64,000 bases of DNA from Bacteroidota bacterium (GTDB lineage Bacteria; Bacteroidota; Bacteroidia; Bacteroidales; SKPS01). Below, in pieces: positions 25,456 to 31,062 of the stretch (position 1 is its first letter; each line of letters starts with the position of its first letter). The stretch is from NCBI GenBank assembly GCA_022709695.1, contig JAKLII010000002.1, positions 278,955-342,954 of the forward strand. Reading direction: 5' to 3'. A program made the position numbers and the translations under genes. The notes under the pieces are model-generated. The model worked only from the letters and a program-made list of their open reading frames with translations. It was not told where the DNA came from and made no database searches.

Positions 25456-27057
25456 TTATCTGGTAATCCCATCCGCCATCTTCACGGCATCGTACGCATT
25501 GAGAACTCCGCCTGAAACGCAGAGATTTTTCATGCGGGTTTTCTTTTTCGAACCGGGGATCACAACCCTCTTTTTGCCGTAGGGGGTGACCGATTTCATC
25601 AGGATATCCCTTATTTGGGCCGGAGTAAGCTGGGGGTAGTACGACAGCAGGAGGGCAGCCACACCGGTTACTACGGGAGCTGCCACGCTGGTGCCGTCGG
25701 ATGCGCCGTATGTGTTTCCGGGATCCAGGGTCATGATGTCGGCCCCGGGGGCGAAGAGGTCGACGGTGGTTTTGCCGTAGTTCGAGAAACCGGCGGGCAG
25801 CTTTTCCCCAATCTCCTTTGTACTGGCACCCACCTCCACCCAGTTGGTGGCACGTTTGCCATCATCGAGCAAGGGGGTGGGAAAGTTACCCGATTGGTCG
25901 TTGTTCTGCCCTTCGTTGCCCGAGGCGTGTACAATCAGAACCCCGTGCTGTTCCGCATATTTCACGGCTTCGTCTACCATCTGTTTCTGCGGCGAGAACT
26001 CCTTGCCGAAGCTGCAGTTGATGATCTGCGCACCCTGATTGACGGCGTATCTGATAGCCAGAGCCACATCCTTGTCCCTCTCATCACCCCCGGGTACGAT
26101 GCGCACCAGCATGATCTCCACCTGCGGTGCGATGCCGTTGATGCCGATGCCGTTGTCGCGGAGGGCCGCCACCAGACCGGCCACTGCGGTGCCATGCCCC
26201 GGCGTGCCACCATTCAGGTTGTGGTTGCCATAGAGGGTGTCGAGGATATCCAGCGGATTGTCGCCGGTGACATACCGCGGGTCGTTCTGCACGTTCAGCT
26301 TGGTATCCATCACCGACTGGAAGTGATCCAGTGTCTCCTTTATCCCCTTCCGGTCTATCCCCAGCTTGTCGTATAACAGGTATACCTGTTTTGCCCTGGC
26401 CAGGTTCTGATCATCCGTATTTATTCCCTGTACGTCGGCATTGGTGTAGGTGCTGTCGTCAAAGTGGCGTGTGAGGACCATATGCACATCCTCCATGGAG
26501 CGGTATAACTTTTTATAGGTATCGAGCATCTTTCGGGTATCGTTGAACTCCTTTTCGTAGGATTCTTTGGCAGCCAGGTAGAGTTCCCAGGCGGCTTTCT
26601 CCTCTGCCGGGATCTGGGCGGCGGATTTTTTACCGTATTTTTTATGTAACTCCCTGTAGATCCGTGTTTTTTCGAGAGTCTCTCCGGCGATTACCTCCCC
26701 TTTGGCGTTGCCCAGGAAGTTCCAGCCATGGTAATCGTCTACATACCCGTTGCCGTCGTTGTCGATGCCGTCGTTGGGGATCTCTCCTGGGTTTGTCCAC
26801 AGGTTGGCAGCGATGTCCACATGGGAGGTATCTATGCCGCTGTCGAGGATGGCCACCACCACCTTCCGGGAAGGCTTTCCGGCAAGGTACCCGTAGGCCC
26901 GATCCAGGCTGATTCCTGCCACCCCGTCCTTTGCCGGATCCTGCAGATACCATTGTTTTGCGGTAAAATCCTTCTGCAGGGTATCGGTTTGGGATACAGA
27001 GGTGAAAGATACCACCATCAAAATAAAGCAAACTGCAATACGTCTGAGTTGTGTCAT
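25456..27057 (-). CDS. Secreted S8 (subtilisin-like) serine peptidase
   Basis: The ATG at 27057 gives a 533-residue protein with a signal peptide (MTQLRRIAVCFIL... ending SVSQ). The open frame extends to 27258, but that would read through the tRNA-Arg gene and is rejected. The catalytic triad is D72 in AILDSGID, H288 in GTPGHGTAVAG and S457 in GTSVAAP; the oxyanion asparagine lies in SGNEGQ near 381. An insertion of about 160 charged, helical residues between the Asp and His motifs is larger than in classic subtilisins and is common in Bacteroidota S8 enzymes. No T9SS domain is present, so a periplasmic location is likely. It is divergent from tRNA-Arg. Confidence 0.92.
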   Translation of the reverse strand: MTQLRRIAVCFILMVVSFTSVSQTDTLQKDFTAKQWYLQDPAKDGVAGISLDRAYGYLAGKPSRKVVVAILDSGIDTSHVDIAANLWTNPGEIPNDGIDNDGNGYVDDYHGWNFLGNAKGEVIAGETLEKTRIYRELHKKYGKKSAAQIPAEEKAAWELYLAAKESYEKEFNDTRKMLDTYKKLYRSMEDVHMVLTRHFDDSTYTNADVQGINTDDQNLARAKQVYLLYDKLGIDRKGIKETLDHFQSVMDTKLNVQNDPRYVTGDNPLDILDTLYGNHNLNGGTPGHGTAVAGLVAALRDNGIGINGIAPQVEIMLVRIVPGGDERDKDVALAIRYAVNQGAQIINCSFGKEFSPQKQMVDEAVKYAEQHGVLIVHASGNEGQNNDQSGNFPTPLLDDGKRATNWVEVGASTKEIGEKLPAGFSNYGKTTVDLFAPGADIMTLDPGNTYGASDGTSVAAPVVTGVAALLLSYYPQLTPAQIRDILMKSVTPYGKKRVVIPGSKKKTRMKNLCVSGGVLNAYDAVKMADGITR

Positions 27058-27155
27058 TCTGAACCGATTGGATTGATTGGGATGTAAAAGTAGGATCTTT
27101 TTCAACCCGGAGAAGGATTTTACCCTGCACCTGTGTATATTTTGCCGAAGTGTGT

Positions 27156-27163
27156 TATCTTTG
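27156..27163 (+). promoter_or_regulatory. -7 element for tRNA-Arg
   Basis: TATCTTTG followed by CACCC is an exact match ten bases before the tRNA 5' end, as expected for a tRNA promoter in this phylum. Confidence 0.5.
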
Positions 27164-27173
27164 CACCCGCATC

Positions 27174-27247
27174 GGCTCAGTAGTTCAGCTGGATAGAACG
27201 TCAGATTCCGGTTCTGAAGGTCGGGGGTTCGAATCCTCCCTGAGTCA
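27174..27247 (+). tRNA. tRNA-Arg (anticodon CCG)
   Basis: The 74-base cloverleaf has acceptor GGCTCAG/CTGAGTC, an anticodon stem TCAGA/TCTGA with loop TTCCGGT (anticodon CCG at 27208-27210), and a T arm around TTCGAAT. The discriminator is A and no CCA is encoded. It reads CGG. The inverted repeat of the four-helix-bundle element begins on the last base of this gene. Confidence 0.95.
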
Positions 27248-27309
27248 CAAAACAGCAAGAGCGTGAGTATTGAGCAACAGCGAAAATACCTGCGCTCTTG
27301 CTGTTTTGT
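27247..27309 (+). repeat. 17-bp inverted repeat at the left end of the four-helix-bundle element
   Basis: The 17 bases at 27247-27263 (core CAAAACAGCAAGAGCG) are perfectly inverted at 27293-27309. The second half lies inside the left 72-bp direct repeat; the first half lies outside it, directly after tRNA-Arg. The same partner sequence recurs in the right repeat at 27727-27743. Confidence 0.85.
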
Positions 27310-27330
27310 ACCTCAATACTCACACTCAAA
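27259..27330 (+). repeat. Left copy of a 72-bp direct repeat
   Basis: It is identical over 72 bases to 27693-27764. Inside, GTGAGTATTGAG (27263-27274) is inverted as CTCAATACTCAC (27312-27323), extendable to 16 positions with one mismatch (27259-27274 / 27312-27327). It ends 12 bases before the start codon of the four-helix-bundle gene. Confidence 0.95.
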
Positions 27331-27342
27331 CTCAAACTGCCA

Positions 27343-27690
27343 ATGTTTAATTTCGAAAAACTTGATGTATATGCGAAGGCAAAGTCTTTCAACATTTCTG
27401 TTGCTACCTTTCTTGAGAAAAACCCATCCATTGACAGATCCACCAAAGATCAGCTCAAACGGGCCGCATTCAGTATCATGCTAAACATTGCTGAAGGCTC
27501 CGGCAGGTTTACTGCCAGGGACAAGAAAAACTTCTATGTGATTTCCAGAGGATCTGTCTTTGAATGTGTTGCAATATTGGACTTTCTAAAGACCACTGGG
27601 CAGTTGGATGAGGTTTCATTCAAACAGTATTATGCATGGTTGGAAGAACTCTCCATGATGCTTTTTGCCATGATTAAAGGCCTTTCCTAA
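27343..27690 (+). CDS. Four-helix-bundle protein (S23 / 23S rRNA intervening-sequence protein family)
   Basis: The ATG at 27343 gives MFNFEKLDVYAKAKSFN and 115 residues. A longer frame from 27298 starts inside the repeat and adds unrelated residues. The family signature is clear: an F..L.VY..AK opening, then RAAFSIMLNIAEGSGRF, then KNFYVISRGSVFECVAIL and a final helix. The fold is the same as the intervening-sequence protein encoded in some 23S rRNA genes and as the accessory protein Avd of diversity-generating retroelements, which bind nucleic acid as pentamers. No reverse transcriptase or rRNA is present. The gene lies exactly between two identical 72-bp repeats; its stop codon is two bases from the right copy. 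Function is unknown; a link to mobility of the element is inference. Confidence 0.9.
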   Translation: MFNFEKLDVYAKAKSFNISVATFLEKNPSIDRSTKDQLKRAAFSIMLNIAEGSGRFTARDKKNFYVISRGSVFECVAILDFLKTTGQLDEVSFKQYYAWLEELSMMLFAMIKGLS

Positions 27691-27692
27691 TT

Positions 27693-27764
27693 GAGCGTGA
27701 GTATTGAGCAACAGCGAAAATACCTGCGCTCTTGCTGTTTTGTACCTCAATACTCACACTCAAA
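27693..27764 (+). repeat. Right copy of the 72-bp direct repeat
   Basis: It is identical to 27259-27330. The internal inverted pair is at 27693-27708 / 27746-27761. The outer A half of the 17-bp inverted repeat is missing here: the base before the copy is the second base after the four-helix-bundle stop codon. Confidence 0.95.
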
Positions 27765-27905
27765 TTCACCTACAGCTTTATCCATAACAGCTGAAGCATA
27801 AAGATCAATACACCATCCTTGTTTTTTCACTGTTGTGATTGTTTCGGGTTGTTTAATCAAAGGTTTTGCATTTCTGTAGGATGATTCATAATTTGGCAGA
27901 ATATT
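27747..27905 (-). pseudogene. Possible C-terminal remnant of an unknown protein
   Basis: On the minus strand from about 27905 to the stop at 27747-27749 the frame reads like a genuine protein end (for example ITTVKKQGWCIDLYASAVMD), with balanced amino-acid use. Upstream it runs into the antisense of the restriction-modification gene, and its last residues and stop codon come from the right 72-bp repeat. This fits a gene truncated at both ends by insertion. I do not recognise the family, and chance is not excluded. Confidence 0.3.
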
Positions 27906-27918
27906 TAAACGGCCGGTT

Positions 27919-30900
27919 ATGAATAAGCTTATTCTTGGCGACAACCTGGAGATACAAAAATACATCACCTCGATCAACAGCCGGTACAAGACCGGGCAGT
28001 CCACGGAACATACCTTTAGGGGAGATCTGCAGCAGCTGGTTGAAACGCTTTTGCCAGGGATTAAGGCTACCAATGAGCCAAAGCGCCAGCAGTGCGGTGC
28101 GCCGGATTTCATTCTGACCAAGAAGGATGTACCAGTAACCTACATCGAAACCAAGGACATTGGCGATGGTGACTTGCAAGGCGTGAAGAAACAAGGGAAC
28201 AAGGAGCAGTTTGACCGGTACAAGTCCGCACTAAACAGCGTTATTTTTACTGACTATCTGGATTTCTACTTCTACCGCGGGAACCAGCTTTTGAATAAGG
28301 TGGCCATTGGGCACGTTACCGTCAAAGGGATTAAACCCTTCCCGGAGAACTTTGCCACCTTTACCAGAATGCTCACCGATTTCTGCCAGCAGACATCCAT
28401 AAGCATCAGGAGCCCAAAACAGCTTGCCCGGATGATGGCCAATAAAGCCCGGATGCTGGCTGATATTATTGAGCAGGCGATCGTTAAGGATTCGGACGAT
28501 AACGAGGATAGCACGCTGAAAGATCAAATGACCGCGTTCAGGGAGATTCTGATTCACGACATTACCCCCAGAGGATTTGCCGATGTGTATGCTCAGACCA
28601 TTGCCTATGGAATGTTTGCCGCCAGGTTGCATGACCCATCACTAGACTCCTTCACCAGGCAGGAAGCGGCAGAACTGATTCCCAGGAGTAATCCGTTCCT
28701 CCGCAGATTGTTTGGGTACATTGCCGGTCCTGATATCGATGATCGGATCAAATGGGTTGTGGATGATCTCTTAGATGTGTTTCTGGCGTGTAACGTGGAA
28801 GAAATTTTGAAGGATTACGGCAAAGAGACGCAGATGGAGGATCCCATCATTCACTTCTATGAAACCTTTTTAAGTGAATATGATCCAAAGCTGCGGAAAG
28901 CGCGTGGCGTTTGGTACACACCACAGCCGGTGGTGAGTTTTATTGTGCGTGCCGTAGACGAGATCCTGAAAACTGAGTTTGGACTCACCCAGGGTCTGGC
29001 CGACAACAGCAAAACAAAGATCAATGTAAACGTACAAGGCAAAATGGTAGAGCAGGAGGTTCACAGGGTGCAGATCCTGGATCCTGCCACCGGAACCGGC
29101 ACCTTTCTGGCAGAAACCATCCGGCACATCCACAAGCAATTTGATGGCCAGCAGGGAGGTTGGAGCGATTATGTGGAGCGGCACCTGATTCCCAGACTCA
29201 ATGGGTTTGAGCTGCTGATGGCCAGTTACGCCATGGCACACCTGAAGCTGGATCTTTTGCTGGCAGAAACCGGATTTAAGCCAACAAAGAACCAACGCCT
29301 GCGGGTATACCTGACAAACAGCCTGGAAGAGAGCCACCCTGACACCGGCACACTCTTCGCCAATTGGCTCAGCGCCGAGGCCAATGAAGCCAACACTATC
29401 AAGCGGGATACACCGGTAATGTGTGTAATAGGGAACCCTCCATATGCAATTAGTAGTTCAAATAAGAATTCTTGGATTGAGGACTTACTGAATGATTACA
29501 AAAGAAACTTGAAAGAAAAGAGTTATAATTCACTTTCTGATGATTATGTGAAATTTATTAGGTACGGACAGTATTATATTGAAAAAAATGGCAGTGGAGT
29601 TTTAGCATATATTTCTAATAATAGCTTTATTGATGGTCTAATACACCGACAAATGCGGATGAACTTATTACATTGTTTTGATAAGTTGTATATATTAGAT
29701 TTGCATGGCGATGCAAAAAAAATGGAGATTTGTCCTGATGGTTCAAAAGACCAAAATGTTTTTGATATTATGCAAGGTGTTTCAATTAATATATTTGTGA
29801 AAGGTGGTAATAGAAAGAAAAATGAGTTTGGAACAGTCCTCCATTTTGATTTACAAGGCAATAGAGAATTTAAATATGCATTTCTACAGGGGAACGCATT
29901 GCCAATGGTTAATTGGAATCGATTAGAAACAGTATCGCCATATTTTTATTTTGTAAAGAAGGATTTTGAAGGATTTCCAAAATATCAGAAAAGCATTAAA
30001 ATCGATGAACTATTTGTGAATTATAATAATGGGATTGAGACTGGAAAAGATGGGTTCTTTTATTCTACTTCTTATAATGAACTAGTTATCAAGATACAAT
30101 TATCATTTTCTGATAAAACTGAGGCCATTTCGAGATATAATATTACCAATACAGATGATTATAAGTTCTTGGAAAAGTTTTCTACTGCAAAATTTTCAGA
30201 AAATTACATACGCAAAGTTTGTTATAGGCCATTTGACATCGTATCATGCTATTACGATATAGCTTTACAAAGAAGACCTGCTTATAATACAATGAGAAAT
30301 GTATTTTTTAACAACCTCGGACTATTGACCCCAAGACAAGTATCGGGAGACTTTAAACATGTGTTTATATCCCAATTCCCAACGGATTCTAATTTAACAA
30401 GTACCGCTAAAAAATTTGGAAGCGCCCCTCTTTTCCCTTTATATATATATCCCGAAACCACTGGCCAGCAAACCATCGCCCATTCACCAGAAAGAACCCC
30501 AAACCTTAACTTAGAAATTATAGACCAGATCGCTGAAAAGCTCGGATTATCCTTTACCCCCGAAAAAGAGTCTACCCCCAACACCTTCGCACCCATTGAC
30601 ATCCTGGATTACATCTATGCCGTGCTTCATTCGCCCAGCTACCGTGAGAAGTACAAGGAGTTTTTGAAGATAGACTTCCCCAGGGTGCCGTACCCAACAG
30701 ACAAAAACCAGTTCTGGAAACTGGTTGAGCTTGGCGGTGAAATCCGGCAGCTACATCTGATGGAGAGCCCGTTGCTAGATTGCCTGATCACCCACTATCC
30801 GGTTGAAGGGGATAATGTAGTTGGTAAAGTTCTCTATAAGGATACCAGGGTGTACATCAACGATACCCAGTATTTCGATGGAGTGCCGGAACTGGCCTGG

Positions 30901-31062
30901 AATTTTTACATTGGCGGCTACCAACCAGCCCAAAAGTGGCTCAAAGACCGGAAAGGCCTCACCTTGAACTTCGACGATATAAGGCATTACCAGAGAATTG
31001 TGGTGGCACTGGTGGAGACGGAAAGGTTGATGAGGGAAGTTGATGCTGTATTGGTCTTATAA
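27919..31062 (+). CDS. Single-chain restriction-modification enzyme (Type IIG/ISP-like, no helicase)
   Basis: The 1047-residue protein carries cleavage, methylation and target recognition in one chain. Residues 20-120 hold a PD-(D/E)xK nuclease: G60-A-P-D63 and E77-T-K79 in TYIETKDIG. A helical spacer precedes the N6-adenine methyltransferase, with a motif X-like VWYTPQPVV (331), motif I DPATGTGTF (388-396) and motif IV NPPY (506-509). Residues of about 515-850 are the likely target recognition domain, followed by a conserved C-terminal region with FPRVPYPT. The helicase of true Type ISP enzymes (about 1500 residues) is absent, so Type IIG-like behaviour is expected. The recognition region (about nt 29440-30450) is strikingly AT-rich against both flanks, suggesting domain replacement. 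It should cut unmodified foreign DNA at an unknown site. Confidence 0.88.
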   Translation: MNKLILGDNLEIQKYITSINSRYKTGQSTEHTFRGDLQQLVETLLPGIKATNEPKRQQCGAPDFILTKKDVPVTYIETKDIGDGDLQGVKKQGNKEQFDRYKSALNSVIFTDYLDFYFYRGNQLLNKVAIGHVTVKGIKPFPENFATFTRMLTDFCQQTSISIRSPKQLARMMANKARMLADIIEQAIVKDSDDNEDSTLKDQMTAFREILIHDITPRGFADVYAQTIAYGMFAARLHDPSLDSFTRQEAAELIPRSNPFLRRLFGYIAGPDIDDRIKWVVDDLLDVFLACNVEEILKDYGKETQMEDPIIHFYETFLSEYDPKLRKARGVWYTPQPVVSFIVRAVDEILKTEFGLTQGLADNSKTKINVNVQGKMVEQEVHRVQILDPATGTGTFLAETIRHIHKQFDGQQGGWSDYVERHLIPRLNGFELLMASYAMAHLKLDLLLAETGFKPTKNQRLRVYLTNSLEESHPDTGTLFANWLSAEANEANTIKRDTPVMCVIGNPPYAISSSNKNSWIEDLLNDYKRNLKEKSYNSLSDDYVKFIRYGQYYIEKNGSGVLAYISNNSFIDGLIHRQMRMNLLHCFDKLYILDLHGDAKKMEICPDGSKDQNVFDIMQGVSINIFVKGGNRKKNEFGTVLHFDLQGNREFKYAFLQGNALPMVNWNRLETVSPYFYFVKKDFEGFPKYQKSIKIDELFVNYNNGIETGKDGFFYSTSYNELVIKIQLSFSDKTEAISRYNITNTDDYKFLEKFSTAKFSENYIRKVCYRPFDIVSCYYDIALQRRPAYNTMRNVFFNNLGLLTPRQVSGDFKHVFISQFPTDSNLTSTAKKFGSAPLFPLYIYPETTGQQTIAHSPERTPNLNLEIIDQIAEKLGLSFTPEKESTPNTFAPIDILDYIYAVLHSPSYREKYKEFLKIDFPRVPYPTDKNQFWKLVELGGEIRQLHLMESPLLDCLITHYPVEGDNVVGKVLYKDTRVYINDTQYFDGVPELAWNFYIGGYQPAQKWLKDRKGLTLNFDDIRHYQRIVVALVETERLMREVDAVLVL

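Follow-up and report, generated by a model that had tools for sequence, protein, structure and literature searches.

For decades S23 genes have been recognised in rRNA intervening sequences, and to our knowledge the proteins that they encode have no known function. Regularly spaced binding sites are familiar from the TRAP-bound trp leader, in which NAG triplets overlap a hairpin and are bound by a ring protein of matching subunit number. The S23-encoding intervening sequences (IVSs) of 23S rRNA in Coxiella burnetii and Leptospira have been described as a selfish element of unclear origin (PMC4990558), and in our best reading they are the closest known kind to the module analysed here. Both hold one S23 gene of similar size, are enclosed by complementary ends and lie in or beside a stable RNA gene (PMC4990558). 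However, modules of the present type lie behind a tRNA or tmRNA gene and not inside 23S rRNA, the unit takes the form of a hairpin with spaced triplets, they have direct second copies that carry RNA 3′ ends, their sites are found occupied, solo and empty, and their S23 gene is under purifying selection.

Avd of diversity-generating retroelements (DGRs) has the same four-helix fold and was the next match, after the solved S23 structures, to the structure model of our S23 protein (Avd, 4dwl; DGR ribonucleoprotein, 8ub7; TM ~0.7). Yet the genome to which the window belongs, 98% complete, gave no match to a reverse transcriptase (PF00078), and a retroelement acting in cis was rejected on this ground. 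RAYT/REP systems also combine a single protein gene with mirrored palindromic repeats around it and solo repeats elsewhere, but the protein flanked here is S23 rather than a Y1 (HUH) transposase and, among seven Y1-transposase matches in the same genome, the four that were examined carry repeats other than S23 units; identity with RAYT/REP was thus rejected. Integrative elements at tRNA sites differ from the module, which holds no integrase; an RNA 3′ end duplicated at the far end is seen in several relatives but not in the window. Integron gene cassettes are similar in their gene-plus-repeat order (arrays in L060), the one feature that was compared. TRAP is a protein unrelated to S23 and has 11 sites at steps of ~5 nt, as opposed to five sites at steps of 6–7 nt in the S23 module, for which binding is putative. 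Cyanobacterial STRR sequences, according to the papers that cite Vioque 1997 (PMC2858038, PMC4748335), are tandem heptamer repeats that also occur inside the structural RNA gene rnpB; we found no publication in the searchable literature that links them to S23. Similarly, no paper in the open-licence literature that was searched describes an S23 module beside a tRNA gene.

The window, a stretch of 64,000 nucleotides from a Bacteroidota genome, contains the order tRNA-Arg, 72-bp repeat, S23 gene and second repeat copy, which the initial annotation had described and which proved exact when the coordinates were rechecked on the sequence (Table 1). The annotation was also right to set this locus apart from 23S rRNA IVSs and from DGRs, as the Rfam matches in the window are tRNAs only, with no rRNA, and reverse transcriptase is absent from the genome as stated above. 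Its account of the unit, comprising the repeats, the inverted pairs and the A segment missing from the right copy, stands; it had overlooked the triplets at 6–7-nt steps and, more widely, the mirrored arrays around S23 genes in general and the S23 clade tied to tRNA and tmRNA genes.

Table 1. Features of the S23 module in the window (positions are those of the window).
Feature	Position	Strand	Basis or remark
tRNA-Arg(CCG)	27174-27247 (or 27248)	+	ARAGORN, Rfam RF00005; module adjoins its 3′ end
Left unit A-B-A′-B′	27248-27342	+	tRNA 3′ end to S23 start codon; sequence, repeats, fold
A, 17 nt	27247-27263	+	perfect complement of A′ (27293-27309)
B, 12 nt	27263-27274	+	perfect complement of B′ (27312-27323); B:B′ is an alternative to A:A′
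A′	27293-27309	+	sequence, repeat search
B′	27312-27323	+	sequence, repeat search
Five [CG]AG triplets	27253, 27259, 27265, 27272, 27278 (span 27253-27280)	+	steps 6, 6, 7, 6
Five triplets, minus strand	27312, 27319, 27325, 27331, 27337 (span 27312-27339)	-	plus strand reads CTC (four times), CTG; steps 7, 6, 6, 6
S23 four-helix-bundle gene, 115 aa	27343-27690	+	PF05635, TIGR02436, structure model
Right unit copy without A	27693-27768	+	72/72, then 75/76 identical; outer triplets decayed

The direct repeat (27259-27330 and 27693-27764) is identical at 72/72 positions in the assembly, and at 75/76 when extended to 76 nt. The left copy ends 12 nt before the S23 start and the right copy begins 2 nt after the S23 end. 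S23 is the sole gene between them, with no integrase; the right copy lacks both A and the tRNA end. Complementarity spanning the gene is formed by B′ before S23 and B after it (23 nt, 87%). Outside the module, a 19-nt inverted pair (89%; 26962-26980 and 27106-27124) is found ahead of the tRNA, around the point where a minus-strand ORF (25456-27258) begins, and a 1047-aa ORF with an NPPY motif (27919-31062), restriction-modification-like by eye, follows the module.

The left unit is predicted to fold far better than chance, both as RNA (z -6.1) and as DNA (z -5.5), and no shuffle equals it. In this copy the A:A′ fold has an energy of -35.3 kcal/mol against -23.8 kcal/mol for B:B′, and the right copy folds as B:B′ (-30.3 kcal/mol). 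Since the linker between A and B is 0 nt and that between A′ and B′ is 2 nt, each helix must span the other, and the two are mutually exclusive within a copy; the left copy would thus adopt A:A′, with B:B′ as its weaker alternative. A pseudoknot, as which the interleaved order A-B-A′-B′ had been read, fails on this geometry and on energy and was rejected, whereas the competition between the two folds, suggested at the same time, is borne out by the linkers and the fold energies.

The protein is a clear member of its family, matching PF05635 (E 3e-23, 82.4 bits, curated cut-off 33.8) and TIGR02436 (E 6e-21, 74.7 bits, cut-off 24). Its AlphaFold2 model is a four-helix bundle (pLDDT 96) which in Foldseek aligns with the chains of the solved S23 structures 2gsc and 2rld at TM 0.81–0.93. 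Both structures have five chains, the Xanthomonas S23 protein is a toroidal homopentamer (PMC4990558), and the window protein is very probably a five-subunit ring. Nucleic-acid binding by such a protein is plausible, because Avd, of the same fold, belongs to a ribonucleoprotein. The protein is under selection, dN/dS being 0.04–0.16 in 14 pairs of S23 genes, which indicates purifying selection.

S23 genes were found in 45 of 61 sampled Bacteroidota genomes, often in several copies, and the genome of the window has eleven. When the flanks of these eleven were read, ten had a tandem array of short units before the gene and reverse-complement repeats after it (L008 is less regular), the unit being different for each gene. 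An inverted-repeat score was defined by taking the 250 nt on either side of a gene and aligning the upstream stretch locally, for the best match, with the reverse complement of the downstream one; it was also computed for 194 control ORFs, whose 99th percentile was 29, and for 459 random slots. This percentile was exceeded by 8 of 9 S23 genes of the window genome, 36 of 68 in the phylum sample and 14 of 24 in a second sample. As the scores exceed the controls in three gene sets, mirrored short-unit arrays, with a unit of ~6–9 nt, are a common companion of Bacteroidota S23 genes, many of which sit between protein genes. In the same genome, the Y1-transposase genes L281–L284 have long mirrored repeats (scores 48–104) that are RAYT/REP-like and unrelated to S23 units.

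Outside Bacteroidota the flanks considered are those of three cyanobacterial plasmid loci only, with scores of 29 and 52, at or above the line of 29, and 19. Two of the three S23 genes stand between mirrored 7-nt-like arrays, a likeness to the STRR heptamers, as these are described in the citing papers, that rests on three loci. One of them (L232), on a plasmid of Picosynechococcus sp. PCC 7003, is placed within a type III-B CRISPR operon, with cas10/cmr2 on one side and cmr3 on the other, and has mirrored short-repeat flanks (score 29). Phage or plasmid cargo as a general account of S23 modules was rejected, there being no phage match and only the three cyanobacterial plasmids and one viral contig.

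The window gene, whose protein has its closest relatives behind RNA genes, belongs to a clade of S23 genes that, in our best reading, is specialised on tRNA and tmRNA 3′ ends, and modules built alike stand behind such RNA genes across Bacteroidota. A co-directional tRNA or tmRNA gene ends within 300 bp upstream of S23 in 49 of 79 loci from named genomes and lies within 600 bp in 72 of all loci, a sample that came from pattern-based scans, is biased toward close relatives and includes many loci from metagenome assemblies. The linked RNA genes are tRNA-Leu (26), tmRNA (16), tRNA-Ser (12), tRNA-Arg (9), tRNA-Lys (2), tRNA-Met (2) and one each of tRNA-Val, -Thr, -His, -Gly and -Pro, and the unit usually starts directly at the RNA 3′ end. 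None of 92 family-sampled S23 genes has such an RNA gene. In a tree of 182 S23 proteins (FastTree, 120 columns) the linked genes fall into one clade, weakly resolved inside, with 20 changes of RNA type. The unit might be taken for the native terminator of the RNA gene, a reading that was rejected for tmRNA as 28 of 30 tmRNAs of the order have unrelated 3′ flanks, one being followed by a unit with S23 and one by a solo unit. Directly behind tmRNA in L216 and L223 we noted AATTGAC-like and TTAGACC-like arrays (mirrored in L223) without S23 in the first 150 nt, possibly relics or solo arrays. Locus L110 (CP034120.1, titled Glaciecola amylolytica) was rejected as a case from another phylum, since a class search on its genome gave Bacteroidota-identical matches; the name of the record looks wrong.

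Within the first 55 nt after the RNA gene, the longest chain of [CG]AG triplets at 6- or 7-nt steps has five members in 23 of 72 linked loci and four in 12, and in none of the 72 does it have six or more, while a chain of five appeared in none of 1440 dinucleotide shuffles and a chain of four in 0.2% of them. The loci are related and these counts are therefore not independent, though there is wide variation in both spacers and stems. In the RNA-linked clade 62 of 96 flanks have a chain of at least four, as compared with 5 of 85 in other S23 genes, so that the unit follows the protein. The hairpin is conserved as well, with fold z below -2 in 55 of 65 unit sequences, a constant apex (GAGC-N4-GCGA) and stems that vary yet stay paired; 61% of stem cells are paired, against a mean of 41% and a maximum of 57% in 500 reshuffles, which marks covariation. 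Considering the five chains of 2gsc and 2rld and the reported homopentamer (PMC4990558), a natural reading of five triplets would be one triplet per subunit of the S23 ring. Outside the RNA-linked clade the array length is not fixed at five, and this idea is thus not general.

Modules of this kind are present at some fixed sites and absent from the same sites in relatives. In L161 (genome G320) an S23 gene with mirrored arrays fills the whole space from the stop codon of one gene to the start codon of the gene that follows, and in L182 (G336) the same two genes are ~27 bp apart with no S23, a clean empty site. In G116 the order is tRNA-Gly(CCC), array, S23, array, tRNA-Ser and tRNA-Pro, and in G214, from the same genus, it is tRNA-Gly(CCC), solo unit, tRNA-Ser and tRNA-Pro. 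Where one species has a module and its relative lacks it, this difference does not by itself distinguish gain from loss. At two intergenic sites the flanks are colinear between species and S23 lies in opposite orientation (the second gene of L161 against L182; L155 against L172 and L174). Such pairs of occupied and empty sites are the sort of test that the initial annotation had named for its reading of the locus as a mobile unit, a reading which they favour, and related elements share tRNA and tmRNA 3′ ends. It had also proposed a search for the unit elsewhere in the genome of the window, and this turned up further copies. The one in L005 follows tRNA-Met and has no S23 gene, that in L004 comes behind a tRNA-like 3′ fragment, and that in L003 stands behind a short tRNA-like 3′ end and is accompanied by an S23 gene that is broken. 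Another genome of the same genus (G001) has no match to the window region, and hence no empty site was found for the window's own tRNA-Arg. In a different setting, L161, L147, L152, L156 and L182 place S23 modules of different species at different junctions of one conserved fatty-acid-type cluster with thiolase and acyl-CoA dehydrogenase neighbours, in a hot-spot-like manner.

A second copy of the RNA–unit junction downstream of S23 was found in 24 of 71 linked loci at a score cut-off of at least 34 (control 99th percentile 31, maximum 38). Several of these copies include part of the RNA 3′ end, namely 10 nt in L053 (Labilibacter sediminis), 18 nt of tmRNA (L063), an alignment of 39 nt that takes in the T-arm (L073) and 16–17 nt in L085, L087, L094 and L108, and in the isolate Crocinitomix catalasitica ATCC 23190 (L056) the repeat pair is identical over 56 nt. 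In Fluviicola chungangensis, contig9 has paralogous modules behind tRNA-Leu GAG and CAG (L083 and L085; S23 dN/dS 0.04), and behind L085 comes an RNA 3′ end that resembles the one of the other tRNA-Leu gene. As to gene content, no neighbouring gene recurs across 76 linked loci (379 ORFs; the largest cluster covers five loci), which argues for a one-gene module and led us to reject a larger operon or island, and the module encodes no recognisable recombinase or transposase; nor was it seen in an excised or a circular form.

We place at roughly 0.6 the probability that the feature is a single-gene mobile module that lies between mirrored arrays and is recognised by its own S23 ring. In the mechanism that we propose, the S23 ring would recognise the array unit, most likely as single-stranded RNA or DNA, and in the RNA-linked branch this unit is the hairpin that directly follows the RNA 3′ end; in the window, the five [CG]AG triplets at 6–7-nt steps on each strand of the unit would offer one to each ring subunit. 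Putative binding of S23 to the unit may then drive or guide movement, and RNA 3′ ends may be favoured because insertion there leaves the RNA intact. Recombination could also account for the solo units, if it takes place between direct copies, and for the opposite orientations, if it takes place between mirrored arrays. Possible candidates for cutting and joining are a recombinase of the host or of an island acting on hairpins, or the repair of folded single strands during replication. A much bolder version is doubtful, if still conceivable: S23 proteins would serve in recognition, and perhaps also in strand processing, for single-gene mobile modules that form a categorically new class; their five-subunit ring would read the five evenly spaced triplets of the mirrored arrays that end the module, with one branch on tRNA and tmRNA 3′ ends and with S23-encoding rRNA intervening sequences and cyanobacterial STRR heptamers as relatives or relics.

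The module could instead be a resident regulatory cassette, in which S23 is expressed by read-through from the tRNA or tmRNA promoter and its ring binds the triplets to control the A:A′ hairpin in a TRAP-like manner, B:B′ acting as the switch. The linked genes are almost always co-directional with the RNA gene, the one exception found in the clade being L106, which is convergent to tmRNA; the two folds exclude each other, the triplet chains resemble TRAP sites, and many tRNA-Leu loci have a run of T at the end of A′, like that of an intrinsic terminator. In addition, no sigma-70-like promoter match was found between the window's tRNA and S23, which is weak evidence as Bacteroidota promoters differ. 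However, a terminator scan of the window unit found none, and a cassette of this kind leaves unexplained the presence and absence of modules, their opposite orientations, the second copies with RNA 3′ ends and the mirrored arrays of S23 genes that have no RNA gene nearby. We consider it unlikely as the whole explanation, although regulation and mobility may coexist.

Equally improbable in our view is that the modules are passive passengers of tyrosine-integrase islands at tRNA and tmRNA 3′ ends, which would transport them, detach them from the RNA gene and leave the RNA ends duplicated, homologous recombination between repeats then giving solo units and inversions. Integrase genes are present in L060, L101 and L118, and at 72 bp the repeats have sufficient length for homologous recombination. 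In L100 a GIY-YIG nuclease gene (PF01541; 2416-2853) separates tRNA-Leu(CAA) from the S23 unit and is followed by a repeat of the tRNA 3′ end, which is perhaps another small element using tRNA 3′ ends; L077 and L103 have similarly duplicated RNA ends with short inserts. Moreover, an orphan RNA 3′ end without its RNA gene precedes the unit in several loci (tmRNA-like in L060, L065 and L109; tRNA-Leu-like in L069, L075 and L088), and in G028 a distance of ~7.4 kb separates an intact tmRNA from a downstream array that bears the tmRNA 3′ end as a tag, the S23 locus holding an integrase gene. Since G028 shows that an integrase island can make such tags, they are ambiguous, and we downgraded them as proof of S23 mobility. 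Nevertheless, neither an integrase nor any other neighbour is common to the 76 linked loci, the distance from the S23 gene is no more than ~130 bp for most junction copies, which leaves no room for an island between the two, and mirrored arrays with presence and absence also occur at sites without RNA genes.

Somewhat less likely again is an IVS-like RNA element, whose arrays would pair in the tRNA co-transcript and let RNase III excise the S23 part as a neutral insertion, as in 23S rRNA IVSs: an S23 ORF within complementary ends beside a stable RNA gene recalls the Coxiella IVS (PMC4990558), and tRNA-Ser–S23–tRNA-Pro loci have G-rich and C-rich mirrored flanks, but the module lies behind the RNA gene and not inside it, the gene-spanning complement of the RNA-linked clade is usually weak (23 of 100 above control) where the upstream hairpin is strong, and many array-flanked S23 genes sit between protein genes. 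Such an element, too, could coexist with mobility.

The mobile-module reading has consequences for the S23 family as a whole. The arrays, a unit that tracks the protein clade and a triplet count equal to that of a pentamer give this family a directly testable substrate. Single-gene modules that occupy the 3′ ends of tRNA and tmRNA genes and have no known recombinase would also represent a new way in which DNA exploits such sites, and S23 modules may show what the long-puzzling S23 proteins do.
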